From Mumia flava (GTDB lineage: Bacteria > Actinomycetota > Actinomycetes > Propionibacteriales > Nocardioidaceae): a DNA stretch of 64,000 nucleotides. This document shows positions 10,696 to 53,922 of the stretch, one piece after another. The stretch is from assembly GCF_002797495.1 (NCBI RefSeq), contig NZ_PGEZ01000001.1, positions 2,356,001-2,420,000 of the forward strand, read 5' to 3'. The notes below the pieces were generated by a model. That model saw nothing but the letters and a program-made list of their open reading frames with translations, was not told the origin of the DNA and searched no databases. The stretch's first letter is position 1. Each line of letters opens with the position of its first letter. Position numbers and translations under genes: made by a program.

Positions 10696-13281
10696 TCAGG
10701 CCGGTGCTCCGCGGCTCGGCGCCGCCGCCCGCACGGAGGCGAGGGCCGCGACGAGACCGTGGCTCGTGGCAGGGTCGCGGACGGCGATGCGGACCCAGTC
10801 CGGGCCGAGCCCGGGGAAGGTGTCGCAGCGGCGTACCGCGAAGCCGGCCGTGCGCAGGGCCTCTCGCACACCGGTGCCGACGTGCGCGAGCACGAAGGGC
10901 GCTGCGTCGCCGTGCACCGCGATCCCGAGCTCGCGCAGACCGTCGACGAGGACAGCACGGTGGCGTACGACGGCGGCCGCGCGCCGCTCCGCCTCGGCGA
11001 CCGCGTGAGGACTCGAGCACGCGATCATCGCTGCCGCCGCCGGCGCGGAGACCGACCACGGAGGCTGGTGTGGTGCGGCGTCGGAGAGCAGCGTCGCGTC
11101 ACCGAGGAGGTAGCCTGCCCGGATCCCGGGGATCGACCACGTCTTGGTCAGGCTGCGCACCACGAGCAGGCCGGGCGTACGGGCGCTCGCGAGGCTGTCG
11201 CGCTCGCCGGGGACCGCGTCGATGAACGCCTCGTCGACGACGACCACCCGCCCCGGCCGCGCGAGGCTTCGCAGTGTGGGCGCGGGGTGGAGCGTGCCCG
11301 TCGGGTTCGTCGGGTTGCCGATGATCACGAGATCAGCGGCCTCGGGGATCCGGGCCGGGTCGAGGGCGAAGTCGTCGGTGTCGGAGAGGATCACCCGGTC
11401 GACCTCGTGCCCGGCGGAGCGCAGCGCGGCCTCGGGCTCGGTGAACTGCGGGTGCACGACGACCGGGTGTCGCCACGTGCGCATCCGCGCGACCAGCGTG
11501 AACGCCTCCGCGCCGCCGGCGGTCGGCAGCACCTCGTCGACCCCGCGCAGATGACGCGCGGCGATCGCGTCGCGGGCGGCGTCGGCGCTGGGGTAGTCCG
11601 TGGAGGCCGTCACGGCGTCGTGCAGGGCGCGATCGAGCCAGCCCGGCCGGGGCTCGCGCGAGACGTTCACGGCGAGGTCGACGAGGTCGGTGCCGCGGAC
11701 CTCGGCGTCGCCGTGGTGGTGCAGGTTGGCGGCCGGCGTGGGGGGTCTCGATCCTCGCTCCGCTCGGCCTCGACCAGCGGGGGTCGGCGTGGGGGGTCTC
11801 GATCCTCGCTCCGCTCGGCCTCGACCAGCGGGGTTGTCCTTCGTCGACGCGCGAGCCGAGCGAGTCTCCCCGTTCGTCGAGGCGCGAGCGGAGCGAGCGA
11901 TCGAGACGCCGCCCGCCCGCACCGCCTCGGCGAACCGCGCGACCGCGCCCGGCGTACCCGCCGTGTGCGTGTGGAGGTACGACGCGTGCACCGTCGCGTA
12001 CCCGACCCGGGCCGGATCGAGGCTGAAGCCGTCGGGCCGGCCGTCGAGCAGCCAGGCCGGCTGCTCGCCCGCCGCCGGGGCGACCGTGGTCCGGTGGAAC
12101 TCGTGCCCACGGACCCGTCCGCCGGCCGGTGCGAGGAGCGTCTCCTGGGGCGCGATCGCCGTGCGGTACGCGAGGGTGAGCCGTGGCGCCATCCCCGCCC
12201 GGGCCGCGATCGCGCCGGTCATCGGAGTGCCGTCGAGCCGGCCGGTGAGGTAGAGCAGCCCGGCGCACTCCGCGATCGTCGGCACCCCGCTGCGGACCGC
12301 GTCGCGCACGGCAGCCCGCAGCGGTGTGTTCGCCCCGAGTGCCGACGCGTGCACCTCGGGGAACCCGCCGCCGAGGTAGAGGCCTGCGGTCCCGTCGGGC
12401 AGCGCCTCGTCCCGCAGCGGGTCGAACGTCACGGGCTCGAGGCCGGCGGCGCGGAACGTCTCGACGGCCTCGGCGTAGCGGAACGTGAACGCGCGACCCC
12501 CGGCGACCGCGACCACGGGGCGCGGCGCACCCGCCCGTACGTCCTCGTCGGCCGGCGGCGACCACGGTTGGTCCGCCAGGTCCGGTGCCGTTCGCGCGAT
12601 CCGCAGAACCGCCTCGAGGTCGACCCGCTCGGCCACCTGCGCGGCGAGTCGGTGCACCGACGCCTCCGCATCGGCGCGTTCCTCGGCCGGCACCAGCCCG
12701 AGGTGGCGCGAGGGCGCGACCACTCCGTCGTCTCGTCCGATCACCCCCAGCACGTCGATCCCGGTGACCTCCAGTGCACGGCGGACCTCGTCGGAGTGCC
12801 GCTGCGAGCCTGCCTTGTTGAGGACCACACCCGCGATCCGGACCGCCGGGTCGAACGCCGCGAGGCCGGCGACGGTCGCGGCGATCGTGCGGGACGCATG
12901 GGAGATGTCGACGACGAGGATCACCGGCGCGCCGATCGCCGCAGCGACGTGCGCCGTCGACGCGTACCCGTCGGTGCCGATCTGCCCGTCGTAGAGCCCC
13001 ATCACCCCTTCGACCACCGCGACGTCGGCCGGCGTGGGCGTCGACGCGCCGTGCAGGAGCAGCGGGACGAGACGGTCGTCGCCGACCAGGTGGGGATCGA
13101 GGTTGCGTCCGGGGCGCCCGGTAGCGAGAGCGTGGTAGCCGGGGTCGATGTAGTCGGGGCCGACCTTGTGCGCGGACACCGTGTGGCCGGCCCTGCGCAG
13201 CGCGGCCATGAGCCCGGTCGCGATCGTCGTCTTGCCGTGACCGGAGGCCGGCGCGGCGACGACGAGCCGGGGCAGCCTCAC
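10696..13281 (-). CDS. cobB-cobC: Fused cobyrinate a,c-diamide synthase (CobB/CbiA) and CobC-type PLP aminotransferase/decarboxylase
   Basis: This 861-residue protein joins two normally separate enzymes. Residues 1 to about 445 are CobB/CbiA: P-loop ASGHGKTT, the motif KVGPDYIDPGYH, and a class I glutaminase domain with nucleophile Cys in IAECAGLLYL and the HASYLHTH motif; it amidates the a and c side chains. Residues about 520-861 are a fold-type I PLP enzyme like CobC/CobD (L-threonine-O-3-phosphate decarboxylase family), with the GNPTNPTG motif and PLP lysine in SLTKTWSIPGIRAGY. The linker, residues about 457-513, is encoded by at least four copies of repeat family A. The GTG start at 13281 overlaps the cobO stop (GTGA). 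Fusion is inferred from one uninterrupted frame. Confidence 0.93.
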   Translation of the reverse strand: MRLPRLVVAAPASGHGKTTIATGLMAALRRAGHTVSAHKVGPDYIDPGYHALATGRPGRNLDPHLVGDDRLVPLLLHGASTPTPADVAVVEGVMGLYDGQIGTDGYASTAHVAAAIGAPVILVVDISHASRTIAATVAGLAAFDPAVRIAGVVLNKAGSQRHSDEVRRALEVTGIDVLGVIGRDDGVVAPSRHLGLVPAEERADAEASVHRLAAQVAERVDLEAVLRIARTAPDLADQPWSPPADEDVRAGAPRPVVAVAGGRAFTFRYAEAVETFRAAGLEPVTFDPLRDEALPDGTAGLYLGGGFPEVHASALGANTPLRAAVRDAVRSGVPTIAECAGLLYLTGRLDGTPMTGAIAARAGMAPRLTLAYRTAIAPQETLLAPAGGRVRGHEFHRTTVAPAAGEQPAWLLDGRPDGFSLDPARVGYATVHASYLHTHTAGTPGAVARFAEAVRAGGVSIARSARASTNGETRSARASTKDNPAGRGRAERGSRPPTPTPAGRGRAERGSRPPTPAANLHHHGDAEVRGTDLVDLAVNVSREPRPGWLDRALHDAVTASTDYPSADAARDAIAARHLRGVDEVLPTAGGAEAFTLVARMRTWRHPVVVHPQFTEPEAALRSAGHEVDRVILSDTDDFALDPARIPEAADLVIIGNPTNPTGTLHPAPTLRSLARPGRVVVVDEAFIDAVPGERDSLASARTPGLLVVRSLTKTWSIPGIRAGYLLGDATLLSDAAPHQPPWSVSAPAAAAMIACSSPHAVAEAERRAAAVVRHRAVLVDGLRELGIAVHGDAAPFVLAHVGTGVREALRTAGFAVRRCDTFPGLGPDWVRIAVRDPATSHGLVAALASVRAAAPSRGAPA
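11744..11907. repeat. Cluster of repeat family A inside cobB-cobC, forming the linker
   Basis: Two identical 37-bp copies starting GGTCTCGATCCTCGCTCCGC and ending CTCGACCAGCGG lie at 11744-11780 and 11795-11831. Two inverted, more diverged copies follow (about 11850-11868, and 11874-11907 ending GATCGAGAC). The whole cluster is translated as part of the CobB-CobC linker, giving Arg/Ser/Ala-rich low-complexity sequence (for example GRAERGSRPPTP twice). Confidence 0.85.

Positions 13282-13891: not shown

Positions 13892-13892
<1 letters not shown>
13278..13892 (-). CDS. cobO: Cob(I)yrinic acid a,c-diamide adenosyltransferase
   Basis: This 204-residue enzyme transfers the adenosyl group from ATP to Co(I) corrinoid. 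It has the CobO/BtuR P-loop HTGDGKGKSTAAFGLALRA (about residues 28-46), the FQFVKSAKW motif, VLDELTYPIGWGW (Walker-B-like) and VITGRRAH. Length and motifs are normal. The ATG at 13892 shares its A with the chelatase TGA stop, and the gene's own stop overlaps the cobB-cobC GTG start, so the three genes are probably translationally coupled. Confidence 0.96.
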
Positions 13893-16081
<2,189 letters not shown>

Positions 16082-16124
16082 CGCTGGGCTCCCGCAGGTT
16101 CGTGGTCGCTCGCGCGACCGGGTT

Positions 16125-16325
16125 CGCGAGGCCGGTCTTCGGACTTCCTGCCATGCCGCTCGGTCGCCTTCCCGGGCCGGAGCCCAGTGGCTGCGCGCAC
16201 GCCGTACGGCGGGTCGCGCGTGACCGAGGACGGACAGGTCACCGCAGCGGGTCCTGTGCCGGATTCTCACCGGCTTCCCTGATTCTCCCCGTGCGCCGCA
16301 GCGCGTGGGGCACCTCGCATCCTTG
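16125..16325 (-). promoter_or_regulatory. Cobalamin riboswitch upstream of chelatase-cobO-cobBC
   Basis: On the minus strand: GGGAAGCCGGTGAGAATCCG, then GCACAGGACCCGCTGCGGTGA in the core, a long variable arm, and the 3' end GGAAGTCCGAAGACCGGCC. These are the B12-box and closing elements of the classic AdoCbl riboswitch. It lies 44 nt upstream of the chelatase ATG and should control the whole three-gene operon. Confidence 0.95.
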
Positions 16326-26280: not shown

Positions 26281-26430
26281 GGTCTCGATCGTCGCTTCGC
26301 GGCGTGCCCGTTGGTCGAGGCGGGCGAGGAACGAGCCCGATCGAGACCCGGAGGTTCGGCCACCCGGGGGTCTCGATCGTCGCTTCGCTCCGCCTCGACC
26401 AGCGGGGTGGTGCTCCGCCTCGACCAGCGG
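26281..26430. repeat. Repeat family A, intergenic cluster of three copies
   Basis: Copy 1 (26281-26348) is a full palindromic form, starting GGTCTCGATCG and ending CGATCGAGACC. Copy 2 (26369-26405) reads GGTCTCGATCGTCGCTTCGC and ends CTCGACCAGCGG. Copy 3 (26412-26430) is a 3' half, GCTCCGCCTCGACCAGCGG. The cluster lies between a terminator and the convergent citryl-CoA lyase-like gene, so here the family is not translated. Confidence 0.85.
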
Positions 26431-43749: not shown

Positions 43750-45342
43750 TCAGTCCCGCTCCGGGACGAACCGCGGGGTCCACGCCGCCCCGCCGGCGCC
43801 GATCCGCGTCGACGAGGCACCGACGAGGATCAGGCACTTCATGTCGATCGACTCGGGGTCGAGCCCGCCGAGCGTGGTGACGGTCAGCGACTCCTCCGCG
43901 CGGCCGACGTCGCGCCCGACGACCACGACGGTGGCCGGATCCCGCTCGGACAGCAGCACCCGCTTGGCGTCAGCGACCTGCGTCGTGCGCGAGCGCGACC
44001 GCGGGTTGTAGATCCCGAGGACGAGGTCGGCGCGCGCGATCGCGCGCAGCCGGTCCTCGATCACCGTCCACGGCTTGAGCCGGTCCGACAGGCTGAGGAC
44101 GGCGAAGTCCGCCCCGAGGGGCGCGCCCGCGCGGGCGGCGACCGCCTGCACGGCCGTCATGCCGGGGACCACCCGCACATCGAGGCGGGCGTACGCAGGG
44201 TCGCCCGCCACGGCCACGTCGAGCGCCTCGAACACCGCCGACGCCATCCCGAAGACTCCCGCGTCGCCGCCCGAGACGACCGCGACCCGCTCTCCCTCGA
44301 GCGCGAGATCGAGCGCGAACCGGGCCCGGTCGATCTCGACGGTGTTCCCGGACGCGTGCCGCTGCAGTCCGGCGCGCTGCGGGACCCGGCTGACGTACGG
44401 GCCGTAGCCCACGACGTGGTCGACCGCAGCGAGGACCTCGGAGGCCTCGGGGGTCAGCCACGCGTCCGGTCCCGGTCCGAGCCCGACGACGTGGAGGGTC
44501 GGTACGGGGTCTCGATCCTCGCTGCGCTCGGCCTCGGCCGACGGGTTCCCATCGCTGGTCGAGGCGTCGGCGAGGGACGAGCCGGCGATCGAGACCCCGC
44601 CCTCCTCGTAGCGTCGCCGCGACGGCGAGCTGTCGCCGGGCACCAGGACGATCGAGAAGTACGGGACTGAGTCCGGATCGACCTCGGCGACCGGGAGCAG
44701 GCGCTGGGAGTCCATCGATGCGCGCTCGACGTACACGGCGTCGTCGAGCCTCCCGGCCTGCGCGAGCGCGGACCGCACGGCAGGGAACCGGCGCCCGAGC
44801 TTCATGATGATGGCTCCGTCGGTGTCGGCGAGCCGGCGGGCGAGCTCGGCCTCGTCGAGGGTGCCCGGGAGCACGGTGAGCACGTCGGTCTGGCGCACGA
44901 GCGGGGCCGCCGCGGTGGCGCTCGCCGCCGCGAACGCCGGGACGCCGGGCACGATCTGGCTCTCGTACCGTCCGGACAGCCGGTCGTGCAGGTACATGAA
45001 CGACCCGTAGAACAGGGGGTCGCCCTCCGCGAGCACGACCACGTCGCGACCCGCGTCGAGGTGCGCGGCCACGCGAGCCTCGCAGTCGGCGTAGAAGTCC
45101 GTCATCGCCCCCGCGTACCCGCCCGGGTGGTCGGTGGTCCCGGTCGTGACCGGGTACTCGAGCACCTCTTCGTGGGCATCCGGTGGGATCAGATCGTCGG
45201 CGATCCGGCGGGCGTTCGAGCGCTTGCCGCGACCCTGGTGGTACGCGATCACGTCCGCGGCGGCGATCAGCCGGGCCGCCTTGAGCGTGACGAGCTCGGG
45301 GTCGCCCGGGCCGAGTCCGACGCCGTACAGCCGGCCGGTCAC
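43750..45342 (-). CDS. cobI-cobJ: Fused precorrin-2 C20-methyltransferase and precorrin-3B C17-methyltransferase
   Basis: This 530-residue protein has two tetrapyrrole methylase domains. Residues 1 to about 240 are CobI (GRLYGVGLGPGDPELVTLKA, VVVLAEGDPLFYGSFMYL, PGVPAFAAASA, IIMKLGR). Residues about 285-530 are CobJ (LHVVGLGPGPDAWLTPEA, HVVGYGPYVSRV, VVSGGDAGVFGMAS, YNPRSRSRT, VVVGRDVGR). CobI-CobJ fusions are known in actinobacteria. The linker (residues about 249-278) is encoded by a family A repeat. The GTG at 45342 overlaps the cobH stop. Together the domains methylate C20 and then C17 with ring contraction. Confidence 0.95.
   Translation of the reverse strand: MTGRLYGVGLGPGDPELVTLKAARLIAAADVIAYHQGRGKRSNARRIADDLIPPDAHEEVLEYPVTTGTTDHPGGYAGAMTDFYADCEARVAAHLDAGRDVVVLAEGDPLFYGSFMYLHDRLSGRYESQIVPGVPAFAAASATAAAPLVRQTDVLTVLPGTLDEAELARRLADTDGAIIMKLGRRFPAVRSALAQAGRLDDAVYVERASMDSQRLLPVAEVDPDSVPYFSIVLVPGDSSPSRRRYEEGGVSIAGSSLADASTSDGNPSAEAERSEDRDPVPTLHVVGLGPGPDAWLTPEASEVLAAVDHVVGYGPYVSRVPQRAGLQRHASGNTVEIDRARFALDLALEGERVAVVSGGDAGVFGMASAVFEALDVAVAGDPAYARLDVRVVPGMTAVQAVAARAGAPLGADFAVLSLSDRLKPWTVIEDRLRAIARADLVLGIYNPRSRSRTTQVADAKRVLLSERDPATVVVVGRDVGRAEESLTVTTLGGLDPESIDMKCLILVGASSTRIGAGGAAWTPRFVPERD
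44508..44596. repeat. Repeat family A inside cobI-cobJ, forming the interdomain linker
   Basis: It starts GGTCTCGATCCTCGCTGCGC at 44508 and ends GGCGATCGAGACC at 44596, with CTGGTCGAGGCGTCGGCGAG in the middle. The outer GGTCTCGATC and GATCGAGACC are perfect inverted repeats. Translated on the minus strand it gives VSIAGSSLADASTS and AEAERSEDRDP, linking the two methylases. Confidence 0.85.
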
Positions 45343-50062: not shown

Positions 50063-50109
50063 CGGTGGATCCGATCGAGACAGGGCGAGAACCCTGCGAA
50101 GGAGCATCG

Positions 50110-53100
50110 ATGACGCGGATCGCGCTGCTGTCCACCTCCGACACCGACCTGCTCGCGGCTCGCGCGAGCGACGCCCCGTACGTGCTGGCGAACCCGTCGC
50201 GGCTGGACGTCGCGACCGAGGTGGAGCCGCTGGTCGCCGATGCGGATCTCGTGATCGTCCGGATCCTCGGGACGTCGCGGACGTGGGCCGACGGGCTCGC
50301 GCTGCTGCGGGCGACGGGGCGGCCTGTCGTCGTGCTGGGCGGTGAGCAGAGTCCGGATGCGGCGCTGATGGAGCTGTCGACGGTCCCCGTCGGTGTGGCG
50401 GCGCAGGCACACGCGTACCTGGCGCACGGCGGCCCGGCGAATCTCGCGCAGCTGCACGGATTCCTGTCCGACACGGTTCTGCTGACCGGGGTCGGGTTCG
50501 AGCCCCCGGAGGCGCTGCCGACCTGGGGCTGGCTGGAGCGGGACGGGTCGGCCGAGCGCGACCCGTCGGTCGAGCCTGTCGAGACCTCGGCCTCCACCAG
50601 CGGTCTCGATGCGAGCGACCGAGAGCCCTACCGCGTCGGCATCCTCGTCTACCGCGCCCACGCGCACGCGGGCAACGACCGCTTCGCCCACGACCTCGCC
50701 GACGCGATCGACGCGACCGGCGACGCCGTCGGTCTCCCGCTCCACACGTCGTCGTTGCGCAACCCGCCGCAGGACCTGATCGCGGCGCTCGGCACCCTCG
50801 ACGCGCTGGTCGTGACCGTCCTCGCCGCGGGCGGGACGCGCCCCGCGAACGCGAGCGCCGGCGGTGACGACGAGGCGTGGGACGTCGCCGCTCTCGCCGG
50901 TCTCGACATCCCGATCCTGCAGGGGCTGTGCCTGACGTGGTCGCGCGAGGAGTGGGCTGGGTCCGACGACGGCGTCTCACCGCTCGACTCGGCGAACCAG
51001 ATCGCGATCCCCGAGTTCGACGGCCGGATCATCACGGTCCCGTTCTCGTTCAAGGAGGTCGACCCGGACGACCCGACTGGGCTCCCGCGCTACGTCACGG
51101 ACCCCGAGCGGTGCGACCGCCTCGCCCGCACGGCCGTCGCGCACGCCCGGCTCCGCCACACCGCCCCGGCCGACCGGCGGATCGCGATGGTGCTCTCGGC
51201 GTACCCCACGAAGCACGCGCGGATCGGGAACGCCGTCGGTCTGGACACCCCGGTCAGCGCCGTCCGCCTGCTGCGCGCGATGCGCGAGGCCGGGTACGAC
51301 CTGGGCCCGACGGGTGTGATCCCGGGCCTCGACGCGGTCGATCGCGTCGACGGCGAGGACCCGGACACTACGGCCGGCAACGCGCTGATCCACGCCCTGA
51401 TCGACGCCGGCGGTCAGGACGAGGAGTGGCTGACCGACGCGCACCTCACGGCGAGCCACGTCAGGATCCCGGCGGCGCGGTACGCCGCGTGGTTCGCGAC
51501 GCTCGACCCCGCACTGCGCGAGGACGTCGAGCGGACCTGGGGACCGCCGCCGGGCCGGCTGTTCGTCAACCAGGACGACGAGATCGTGCTCGCGACGCTG
51601 CGCGCCGGGAACCTCGTGCTGCTGATCCAGCCGCCCCGTGGGTTCGGAGAGAACCCGGTCGCGATCTACCACGACCCGGACATGCCGCCGAGCCACCACT
51701 ACCTGGCGGCGTACCGCTGGCTGGAGAACGGCCCGGACGTCGGTGGGTTCGGCGCGCACGCGGTCGTGCACCTCGGCAAGCACGGCTCGATGGAGTGGCT
51801 GCCCGGCAAGAACGCGGCGCTGTCGGCGGCCTGTGCGACCGACGCCGCGATCGGATCGATGCCGCTGGTCTACCCGTTCCTGGTCAACGACCCCGGGGAG
51901 GGAGCGCAGGCGAAGCGCCGCGCGCACGCGACGATCGTCGATCACCTGATCCCGCCGATGGCGCGCGCCGAGTCGTACGGTGACATCGCGAAGCTCGAGC
52001 AGCTGCTCGACGAGTACGCGAACGTCGCCGCGATGGATCCTGCGAAGGTCCCCGCCCTCCGTGCGGAGATCTGGACCCTGATGACCGCGGCGCAGATGCA
52101 CCGTGACCTCGGGCTCGAGGAGCGGCCGGGCGACGAGGAGTTCGACGACTTCCTGCTCCACGTCGACGGGTGGCTCTGCGAGGTGAAGGACGCCCAGATC
52201 CGCGACGGCCTGCACGTCCTCGGCGCGGCGCCGACGGGAGCAGTACGGGTGGATCTGGTGCTGTCGATCCTGCGGGCGGCGCAGGTGTGGAGCGGGCGGA
52301 GCCACGCCGTACCCGGGCTTCGCAGCGCGCTCGGGCTGACCGAGGACGCCGACGCGCGGACGACCGACGCGATCGAGGCCCGGGCGCGGGCGCTGGTCGA
52401 GGCGATGGAGGACGCGGGCTGGGACCCGACGGCGGTGCCGGCGGTGCTCGAGGGTCTCGATCACTCGCTCCGCTCGCGCCTCGACCAGCGGAACGACGCC
52501 TCCCTCCCGGTCGTCGAGGCCGAGCGGAGCGGCTCCCTCCCGGTCGTCGAGGCCGAGCGGAGCGAGGATCGAGACGCCGTCGCCGAGGTCCTGACCTTCG
52601 CCGCCACCGAGGTCGTCCCCCGCCTGGCTCGCACCACCGACGAGATCGGGGCTGTCCTGCACGCGCTCGACGGCGGGTACGTCCCCGCGGGTCCGTCCGG
52701 CTCTCCCCTGCGCGGCCTCGTCAACGTGCTCCCGACCGGGCGCAACTTCTACACCGTGGACCCGAAGGCCGTGCCGAGCCGCCTCGCGTACGAGACGGGC
52801 GTGCGGATGGCCGACTCGCTGATCTCGACGTACGTCGCCGACCACGGCGAGCACCCGCGGTCCGTCGGGCTGTCGGTGTGGGGCACGTCGGCGATGCGCA
52901 CGTCCGGCGACGACGTCGGCGAGGTGCTGGCGCTGCTCGGGGTCCGCCCCACCTGGGACGAGGCCTCGCGACGCGTCACCGCGCTGGAGCCGGTCGACCT
53001 CGCCGAGCTCGGACGGCCGCGGATCGACGTGACGGTGCGGATCTCCGGCTTCTTCCGCGACGCGTTCCCGCACGTGGTCGCGATGCTGGACGACGCCGTA

Positions 53101-53922
53101 CGCCTCGTCGCGGAGCTGGACGAGCCGGACGACCAGAACTTCGTCCGCGCCCACGCCCGTGCCGACCTCGCCGAGCACGGTGACGAGAGGCGCGCGACGA
53201 CGCGGATCTTCGGCTCCGCCCCCGGCGCGTACGGCGCGGGGATCCTGCCGCTGATCGAGTCCGGGACATGGCGCGACGACGCCGATCTCGCCGAGGTCTA
53301 CACGACGTGGGGCGGGTACGCGTACGGCCGCGGGCTGGAGGGGCGTGCGGCGAACGACGACATGCGCACCGCGTACCGCCGGATCGCCGTGGCGGCGAAG
53401 AACACCGACACCCGCGAGCACGACATCGCCGACTCCGACGACTACTTCCAGTACCACGGCGGGATGGTCGCCACGGTCCGCGCGCTGACCGGCGCCGCGC
53501 CCGAGGCGTACGTCGGGGACTCGACCACGCCGGACGCGGTCCGTACCCGGACGCTGGAGCAGGAGACGAACCGCGTGTTCCGCTCCCGGGTGGTGAACCC
53601 CCGCTGGATCGCCGCGATGCAGCGGCACGGCTACAAGGGCGCGTTCGAGCTGGCGGCGACGGTGGACTACCTGTTCGGGTACGACGCGACGACCGGGGTC
53701 GTGGCGGACTGGCAGTACGAGGCGCTGGCGCGCGAGTACGTGCTGGACAAGGCGAACCAGGAGTTCATGCGCCGCGCGAACCCCTGGGCGCTGCGCGGGA
53801 TCGTGGAGCGGCTGTCCGAGGCCGCCGACCGTGGGCTGTGGGCGGAGCCCGACCCCGACGTGGTCGCGCAGATGCAGCAGGTCTACCTCGACGTCGAGGG
53901 CGACCTGGAGGACCGGGGGTGA
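50110..53922 (+). CDS. cobN: Cobaltochelatase subunit CobN
   Basis: This 1,270-residue large catalytic subunit inserts Co2+ into hydrogenobyrinic acid a,c-diamide with ATP hydrolysis by its AAA+/VWA partner. It has [19 protein letters not shown] (about residues 557-575), [64 protein letters not shown] and [20 protein letters not shown], all diagnostic. Two inserts of family A repeats occur, at residues about 153-171 and 782-823, probably in surface loops. The ATG at 50110 follows GAAGGAG. Its stop overlaps the cobF GTG. Confidence 0.96.
   Translation: [1270 protein letters not shown]
50568..50620. repeat. Repeat family A, short inverted pair in cobN (5' insert)
   Basis: GGTCGAGCCTGTCGAGACC (50568-50586) and GGTCTCGATGCGAGCGACC (50602-50620) form an imperfect inverted pair and share the family ends GGTCTCGA/TCGAGACC. 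It is translated as [20 protein letters not shown], not expected in the CobN core. Confidence 0.65.
52453..52577. repeat. Repeat family A in cobN (central insert) with a 33-bp tandem duplication
   Basis: A forward copy runs from GGTCTCGATCACTCGCTCCG (52453) to CTCGACCAGCGG (52491). Then a 33-bp unit starting TCCCTCCCGGTCGTCGAGGC is duplicated in tandem (52501-52533 and 52534-52566), and the inverted end GGATCGAGACG closes the cluster. The duplication gives [11 protein letters not shown] then [11 protein letters not shown]. All of it keeps the CobN frame open. Confidence 0.85.

Follow-up and report, generated by a model that had tools for sequence, protein, structure and literature searches.

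A CCG-tagged palindromic repeat dispersed through the genome of Mumia flava and translated in frame within the linker of a fused CobB-CobC enzyme

Repetitive extragenic palindromic (REP) sequences in the wide sense are imperfect palindromes of 20-40 nt that occur in high copy number, lie mainly outside genes and carry an unpaired tag at one end. The GTAG REPs are thought to be mobilised by REP-associated tyrosine transposases (RAYTs), relatives of the stem-loop-recognising IS200/IS605 enzymes (PMC2817692, PMC3116915), and the CGTC REPs are described as having no dedicated transposase (Di Nocera et al. 2013, PMC3733652); the main text of the latter paper contains no word beginning with "actino". 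By examining a stretch of 64,000 nucleotides of the actinobacterium Mumia flava (NZ_PGEZ01000001.1, positions 2,356,001 to 2,420,000; the window), a palindromic element was characterised that lies in several copies within a fused cobB-cobC gene of the B12 pathway and shows each of the features of a REP in the wide sense. It is probable that this element is a REP-like palindromic repeat moved in trans by an enzyme other than a Y1 transposase, that its in-frame insertions survive in loops and linkers, and that the CobB-CobC fusion is older than the insertion it now holds.

The GTAG and CGTC REPs resemble the element in being palindromes of 20-40 nt with an unpaired tag at one end, complementary changes in the stem and a high copy number; they also occur as singles, pairs and arrays between convergent or unidirectional genes, and some lie inside genes, including those of DnaE2 and of repair proteins (PMC3733652). 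The placement of the element, the logic of its tag and its entry into repair and polymerase genes agree with that description. On the other hand, the element differs from the described REPs in its tag, in a hairpin based on G-A, in the group of its host and in having no Y1 enzyme. Its 5' tag is CCGNY and not GTAG. The letters CGTC, which in the CGTC REPs form an unpaired tag beside a stem of 8-9 bp and a loop of 4-5 nt, here pair with GACG as an outer stem, and tandem G-A stems carry a GNA loop. The Y1 transposase domain (Y1_Tnp, PF01797), which goes with the GTAG REPs, is not present in the M. flava genome; among the 61 genomes of its family, the Nocardioidaceae, it occurs in two, neither of which has the element pattern, and it is absent from all 25 that do, so a RAYT origin was rejected. 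In the cited papers Y1 transposases accompany the GTAG REPs, and no mover is known for the CGTC REPs (PMC3733652); a large family in actinobacteria that has a different tag and lacks a Y1 enzyme raises the question of what moves it. A CCG-tagged family of this kind is not named among the matches listed in the open-licence literature, nor in the excerpted text of PMC1590033, and an earlier description may exist elsewhere.

The product of the cobB-cobC gene carries CobB domains in its first part and an aminotransferase domain in its last part, and matches the bifunctional CobBC model of NCBIfam with 1212.8 bits (cut-off 950), which places it in that family (Table 1). The initial annotation had noticed repeats in this gene, and these are real. 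Two copies of 37 bp are identical and offset by 51 bp, forming tandem 51-bp units that are 96% alike. Of two inverted, diverged copies that had been proposed, one is complete, with an outer stem CGTC/GACG that is altered on both sides, whereas the other is truncated. In the window as a whole, a 36-letter pattern finds five matches with at most three mismatches, compared to none in 100 shuffles. Further members had been placed in the linker of a fused cobI-cobJ gene, in cobN and between genes near 26.3 kb, and copies were confirmed at all of these places.

Table 1. Host genes and copies of the element in the window (positions in the window; a point marks features with copies on both strands)
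Feature	Position	Strand	Remarks
cobB-cobC fused gene, 861 codons	10696..13281	-	insertion host; NCBIfam NF053748 bifunc_CobBC
subtype A copy 1 including tag	11744..11780	-	tag end at 11780
subtype A copy 2 including tag	11795..11831	-	same letters as copy 1
truncated diverged copy	~11841..11866	+	inverted to copies 1 and 2; placed by reading of the sequence; falls within the spacer
subtype B full diverged copy including tag	11870..11908	+	inverted to copies 1 and 2; body 11874-11908
intergenic group	26281..26426	.	C-type 26312-26348 (+), A2-type 26369-26401 (-), partial copy at each end
cobI-cobJ fused gene	43750..45342	-	host; insertion in linker
inverted pair in CobI-CobJ linker	44508..44596	.	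A (-) 44508-44540, D (+) 44556-44596
cobN	50065..53922	+	host of two insertions
short form GGTCGAGCCTGTCGAGACC in CobN	50568..50586	+	surrounding region differs in G001 and G005
inverted pair in CobN	52453..52576	.	B (-) 52453-52487, A (+) 52544-52576, truncated copy between; absent at G001 site

Six Mumia genomes were compared, that of M. flava (G000) and five others (G001-G005). The whole M. flava genome holds 106 matches to the motif of the initial annotation with at most three mismatches, and the reversed pattern has none. A looser pattern, TGGTCGAGN{10,26}TCGAGACC, is matched 156 times in G000, 114 in G001, 118 in G005, 14 in G002, 12 in G003 and 3 in G004, with 0, 1, 0, 0, 0 and 1 control matches in the same order. 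Within 375,139 bases of G000 fetched around listed copies, 209 copies in 110 clusters were recognised at six or fewer mismatches to five subtype strings (A 72, A2 42, B 77, C 13 and D 5; 14 weaker matches were excluded), and the same bases reversed gave none; because the bases were chosen for copies among the matches listed, these counts describe the sampled places and not the whole genome. Across the family, the strict pattern CCGNTGGTYGAGN{8,28}TCGARACC has matches in 25 of 61 genomes, which belong to 13 of 26 genera, and its control has none; at least 10 matches are found in 11 of these 25 genomes and a single match in 6, and there is none in the remaining 36 of 61. One 38-nt string of subtype A was compared with plasmids and phages at E 0.1 and matched nothing. 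The view of a small palindrome that is dispersed through the genome and tolerated in protein is borne out by these near copies and by the in-frame copies in enzymes described below. The outcome that had been named as speaking against it, the same linker in all relatives and a motif rare elsewhere, was not encountered.

The element unit is about 30-45 nt long with a core of 33-41 nt, and consists of the unpaired 5' tag followed by a hairpin. In the tagged orientation, subtype A reads CCGNT, GGTC, GA, G, an inner stem with a second GA, the loop GNA, the returning GA, the inner stem, C, GA and GACC. The tag is nearly invariant, its C being found in 189 of 191 copies and its G in all 191. Pairs were counted in the A and A2 copies with at most 4 mismatches (104 copies, 36 distinct; 10 with 5-6 mismatches, some of them truncated array units, were excluded), in the B copies with at most 6 (77 copies) and in the C copies with at most 4 (12 copies, 1 excluded). 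The outer pair 1-32 of A/A2 is Watson-Crick in 102 of 104 copies (G-C in 65, C-G in 37), compared to 54.7 after partner shuffling, and pair 10-22 in 99 of 104, compared to 55.7. In subtype B, pair 2-33 is Watson-Crick in all 77 copies with three pair types (59.5 after shuffling), and pair 10-24 is G-T in 26 of 77, a pairing that is possible solely on the tagged strand. Pairs that are nearly invariant are uninformative for covariation in either direction. The mismatches are conserved as well: the outer tandem G-A is present in 104 of 104 A/A2 copies, in 74 of 77 B copies at each position and in 10 and 12 of 12 C copies, and the GNA loop in 103 of 104, 77 of 77 and 12 of 12, respectively. An alternative fold of subtype A proposed by DNA parameters, CCGCT/AGCGG, was rejected, since its partners do not covary; base 4 of the tag is free (C 96, T 50, G 32 and A 13 of 191), and its would-be partner is almost always G.

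DNA mini-hairpins that have a GNA or GNNA loop and two or more G-C pairs are described as extraordinarily stable, GCGAAGC melting at 78 C (PMC4686876). Outside the genus Mumia, 103 distinct strings were drawn from the matches listed, in which some strict-pattern genomes are unrepresented. A GNA or GNNA core with two G-C pairs is present in 51 of them, compared to 16.8 (maximum 29) after shuffling of the inner region, and a further 15 have GNA with one G-C pair between G-A pairs, compared to 0.07. Fifteen of the 103 resemble two short forms side by side. The nearly invariant G-A mismatches together with the GNA loop lead to a direct prediction about the form that is recognised: the tagged strand would fold as single-stranded DNA, and a trans-acting enzyme other than a Y1 transposase would copy the folded strand to new places. 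Insertions within genes would then mostly disappear; those in a loop or linker that preserve the reading frame may survive and be translated, the CobB-CobC linker being one such putative landing place.

The placement of the clusters in G000 was classed with a codon model for which 161 frames from the fetched bases served as training set, 2 clusters close to fragment ends being left unclassed. Coding flanks are convergent at 26 of 110 clusters, compared to 33 of 3000 places drawn at random from these fragments, and divergent at 5; where only one flank is coding, the cluster lies downstream of it in 28 cases and upstream in 11. About half of the 110 clusters are located at gene ends. By contrast, 13 of 110 lie within an open frame that codes on both sides, compared to 1343 of 3000 random places, and 97 are not classed as within a gene. 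The arrangement of neighbours at distances up to 150 bp depends on direction. When A and A2 are counted as one, the subtype is equal in 44 of 44 same-direction pairs, which look like tandem duplications, and in only 1 of 55 opposite-direction pairs, for which 5000 partner shuffles gave 19.6 on average and never fewer than 8. Long perfect palindromes are unstable, which could account for the avoidance of inverted pairs of one subtype. Inverted pairs with their tags inside are found in 10 of the 13 in-frame clusters and in 25 of the 97 others (P = 0.0005). A mobile dimer of fixed composition was rejected as the unit, as the spacers of these pairs vary in sequence and in length, from 12 to 139 nt. 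In addition, four tandem arrays of G000 C1 (924566-924730, 1031083-1031189, 1320045-1320182 and 1592864-1592998) are built of units that lack the 3' outer stem, the last copy alone being complete, which suggests that they arose by slippage within the hairpin.

The in-frame hosts are unrelated proteins. Above the cut-off of NCBIfam they comprise CobBC, CobI and CobJ, CobN, DnaX, the error-prone DNA polymerase DnaE2 and allantoate amidohydrolase; Mfd, whose frame is truncated where the locus ends, reaches 652 bits and thereby stays under its cut-off of 800. Pfam adds a molybdopterin-domain oxidoreductase, a transporter with a universal stress domain, AtuA, an ABC transporter, a flavin monooxygenase-like protein and an E1-E2 ATPase. 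Translation of the element runs in either direction and uses several frames, and the resulting peptides, among them VEAERSEDRD, GRGASGASDRD and GRGRAERGSRPP, are unrelated to one another and rich in Arg, Ser, Ala and Gly; no single peptide is conserved, because the peptide is set by frame and strand.

These features may be set against three other kinds of short repeat. REPINs also consist of inverted hairpin pairs, an arrangement that in the element is enriched among in-frame insertions; however, REPINs pair the same REP at preferred distances and accompany RAYTs (PMC3116915), whereas the inverted pairs described here join different subtypes in 54 of 55 cases with widely varying spacers, and the element is not a REPIN. 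The Rickettsia palindromic elements, to which the initial annotation had likened it, are likewise palindromic insertions translated in frame in unrelated genes, but they are about 150 bp long and encode a conserved peptide (PMC10969869). That analogy is fair for the outcome, and the REPs are nearer in size, tag, hairpin and placement. Miniature inverted-repeat transposable elements (MITEs) are short, non-autonomous and dispersed, and they are flanked by a target site duplication. The element shares the first three properties, but a weak search of 48 single copies for target duplications showed no consistent excess, the best of 32 offsets giving 2 of 48 compared to 0.16 (five letters).

Empty sites, which had been sought as the other trace of mobility, were found in CobN (G001), CobB-CobC (G001), CobI-CobJ (G001 and G005) and Mfd (G004), and they support the view of a dispersed palindrome that proteins tolerate. 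Between the same anchors, CobN has 68 residues in G000, 90 in G005 and 29 in G001; the inserts of G000 and G005 are of the element class and differ, although their layout as an inverted pair is common to both. The Mfd loop is filled in four of the six Mumia genomes (G000, G001, G003 and G005) by inserts of differing subtypes. Their starting codons nearly coincide and they start in a common orientation, and the G001 insert contains, letter for letter, a subtype frequent among the G001 matches listed. Hence, a single old insertion per gene, followed by gene conversion within each genome and by loss in some species, is a serious rival to repeated insertion, and its chance falls only a little short of even. 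Against it stand the Mfd of G004, in which neither a head nor a tail core of the element is present within the 35 residues between the same anchors, and the DnaE2 site, which has inserts in G000 and G005 and two head cores without a tail in G001, but no core in G002, G003 or G004, where another short sequence occupies the place. That other sequence consists of short repeats built on GCGGGTCACTC or GCGAGTCACTC in G004 (L214) and G002 (L215), and is shorter in G003 (L217). The rarity of the element in CobB-CobC linkers argues in the same direction. Among 80 loci found with the CobB-CobC protein, the two parts are fused in one open frame in 37, are adjacent in separate frames in 16 and lie farther apart in 9, and 18 have no CobC match in the locus. 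Only 2 of the 37 fused linkers contain the element class with a closed stem, an array in Nocardioides sp. AX2bis (L051) and a copy in Nocardioides luteus BAFB (L064). The other 35 do not; isolated head or tail cores without a closed stem in L040, L041, L042 and L060 and an unrelated stem in L065 are taken as chance. The same counts bear on the proposal of the initial annotation that the palindrome bridges neighbouring frames and so creates or maintains fused genes. It is attractive in that two fused B12 genes have the element in their linkers, but CobB and CobC are also fused in G001, with a linker of 30 nt, and CobI and CobJ are fused in G001 and G005, neither linker having a head or tail core. 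Since both fusions exist without the element in relatives, they did not need it, and further in-frame copies (in CobN, Mfd, DnaE2 and more) lie away from known fusion joints. This proposal is therefore hardly credible; the palindromes decorate gene fusions, tempting as the reverse is, and did not make them. As judged from the compared sequences, the element entered a pre-existing CobB-CobC linker and the fusion came first. In three CobB-CobC linkers of other genera (L046, L061 and L091), other strong palindromes are present with arms of 10, 10 and 15 bp, none of 100 shuffles being as good, and the linker thus accepts several kinds of palindrome.

With regard to function, the repeats could be bidirectional transcription terminators or 3'-end structures of mRNA that are under selection, their spread being secondary. 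The excess of convergent flanks and of downstream positions is as expected for terminators, and RNA folding of the tagged strand reproduces the proposed hairpin for subtypes A and B. Yet the tag and the G-A positions are conserved past the needs of a terminator, tandem arrays exist, the clusters within open genes lie where a terminator would harm, and the strict pattern is missing from most genomes of the family, so this explanation appears rather unlikely. Selection of the encoded peptide as a useful flexible linker is very improbable. The composition of the peptides would suit it and the frame is kept in 13 of 13 in-frame clusters, which is true by the definition of that class, but reading in both directions and several frames yields unrelated peptides, and most clusters are not within a gene at all. 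The preferred reading, a REP-like repeat moved in trans, has several observations to contend with. Folding energies are no better than those of shuffled sequence (z-scores of -1.10 to 0.37 for the tagged strand) and thus fail as proof of structure, so that the case for the hairpin rests on covariation; DNA parameters choose a different fold for subtypes A and B; and 37 of the 103 outside strings have no GNA or GNNA core, compared to 66 with one. No mobilising enzyme has been identified for the element, and the differences are between species only, with no insertion event seen. Moreover, the Mfd of G002 (L208; 27 residues between the same anchors) contains the 10-nt GGTCTCGACC, in which head and tail overlap in the way that a deletion reaching from one TCGA repeat of the element to the other would leave them; this string, which fits a single old insertion, could be a remnant or chance. 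A wider proposal is more tentative, and we regard it as possible without favouring it: CCG-tagged repeats may constitute a third tagged REP-like superfamily across the Nocardioidaceae, with a G-A hairpin and a GNA/GNNA loop, familiar from the chemistry of synthetic DNA for its extraordinary stability, through which single-stranded DNA would be recognised, a non-Y1 mover, and repeated colonisation of the same protein loops (Mfd, DnaE2, CobN and CobB-CobC), each species having its own subtype. In any case, the Mfd loop, the DnaE2 loop and the CobB-CobC linker provide a natural series of filled and unfilled enzyme sites for measuring the cost of in-frame insertion.

Elsewhere in the window, a scan with Rfam at gathering scores found a cobalamin riboswitch (RF00174, 16124-16320, minus strand, 66.6 bits) as the only match. 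A chelatase-like gene (13892-16270, minus strand) contains a 21-bp tandem repeat at 14804-14918, between its AAA and VWA domains, and this repeat starts beside a short palindrome that is one letter from the short form in CobN.

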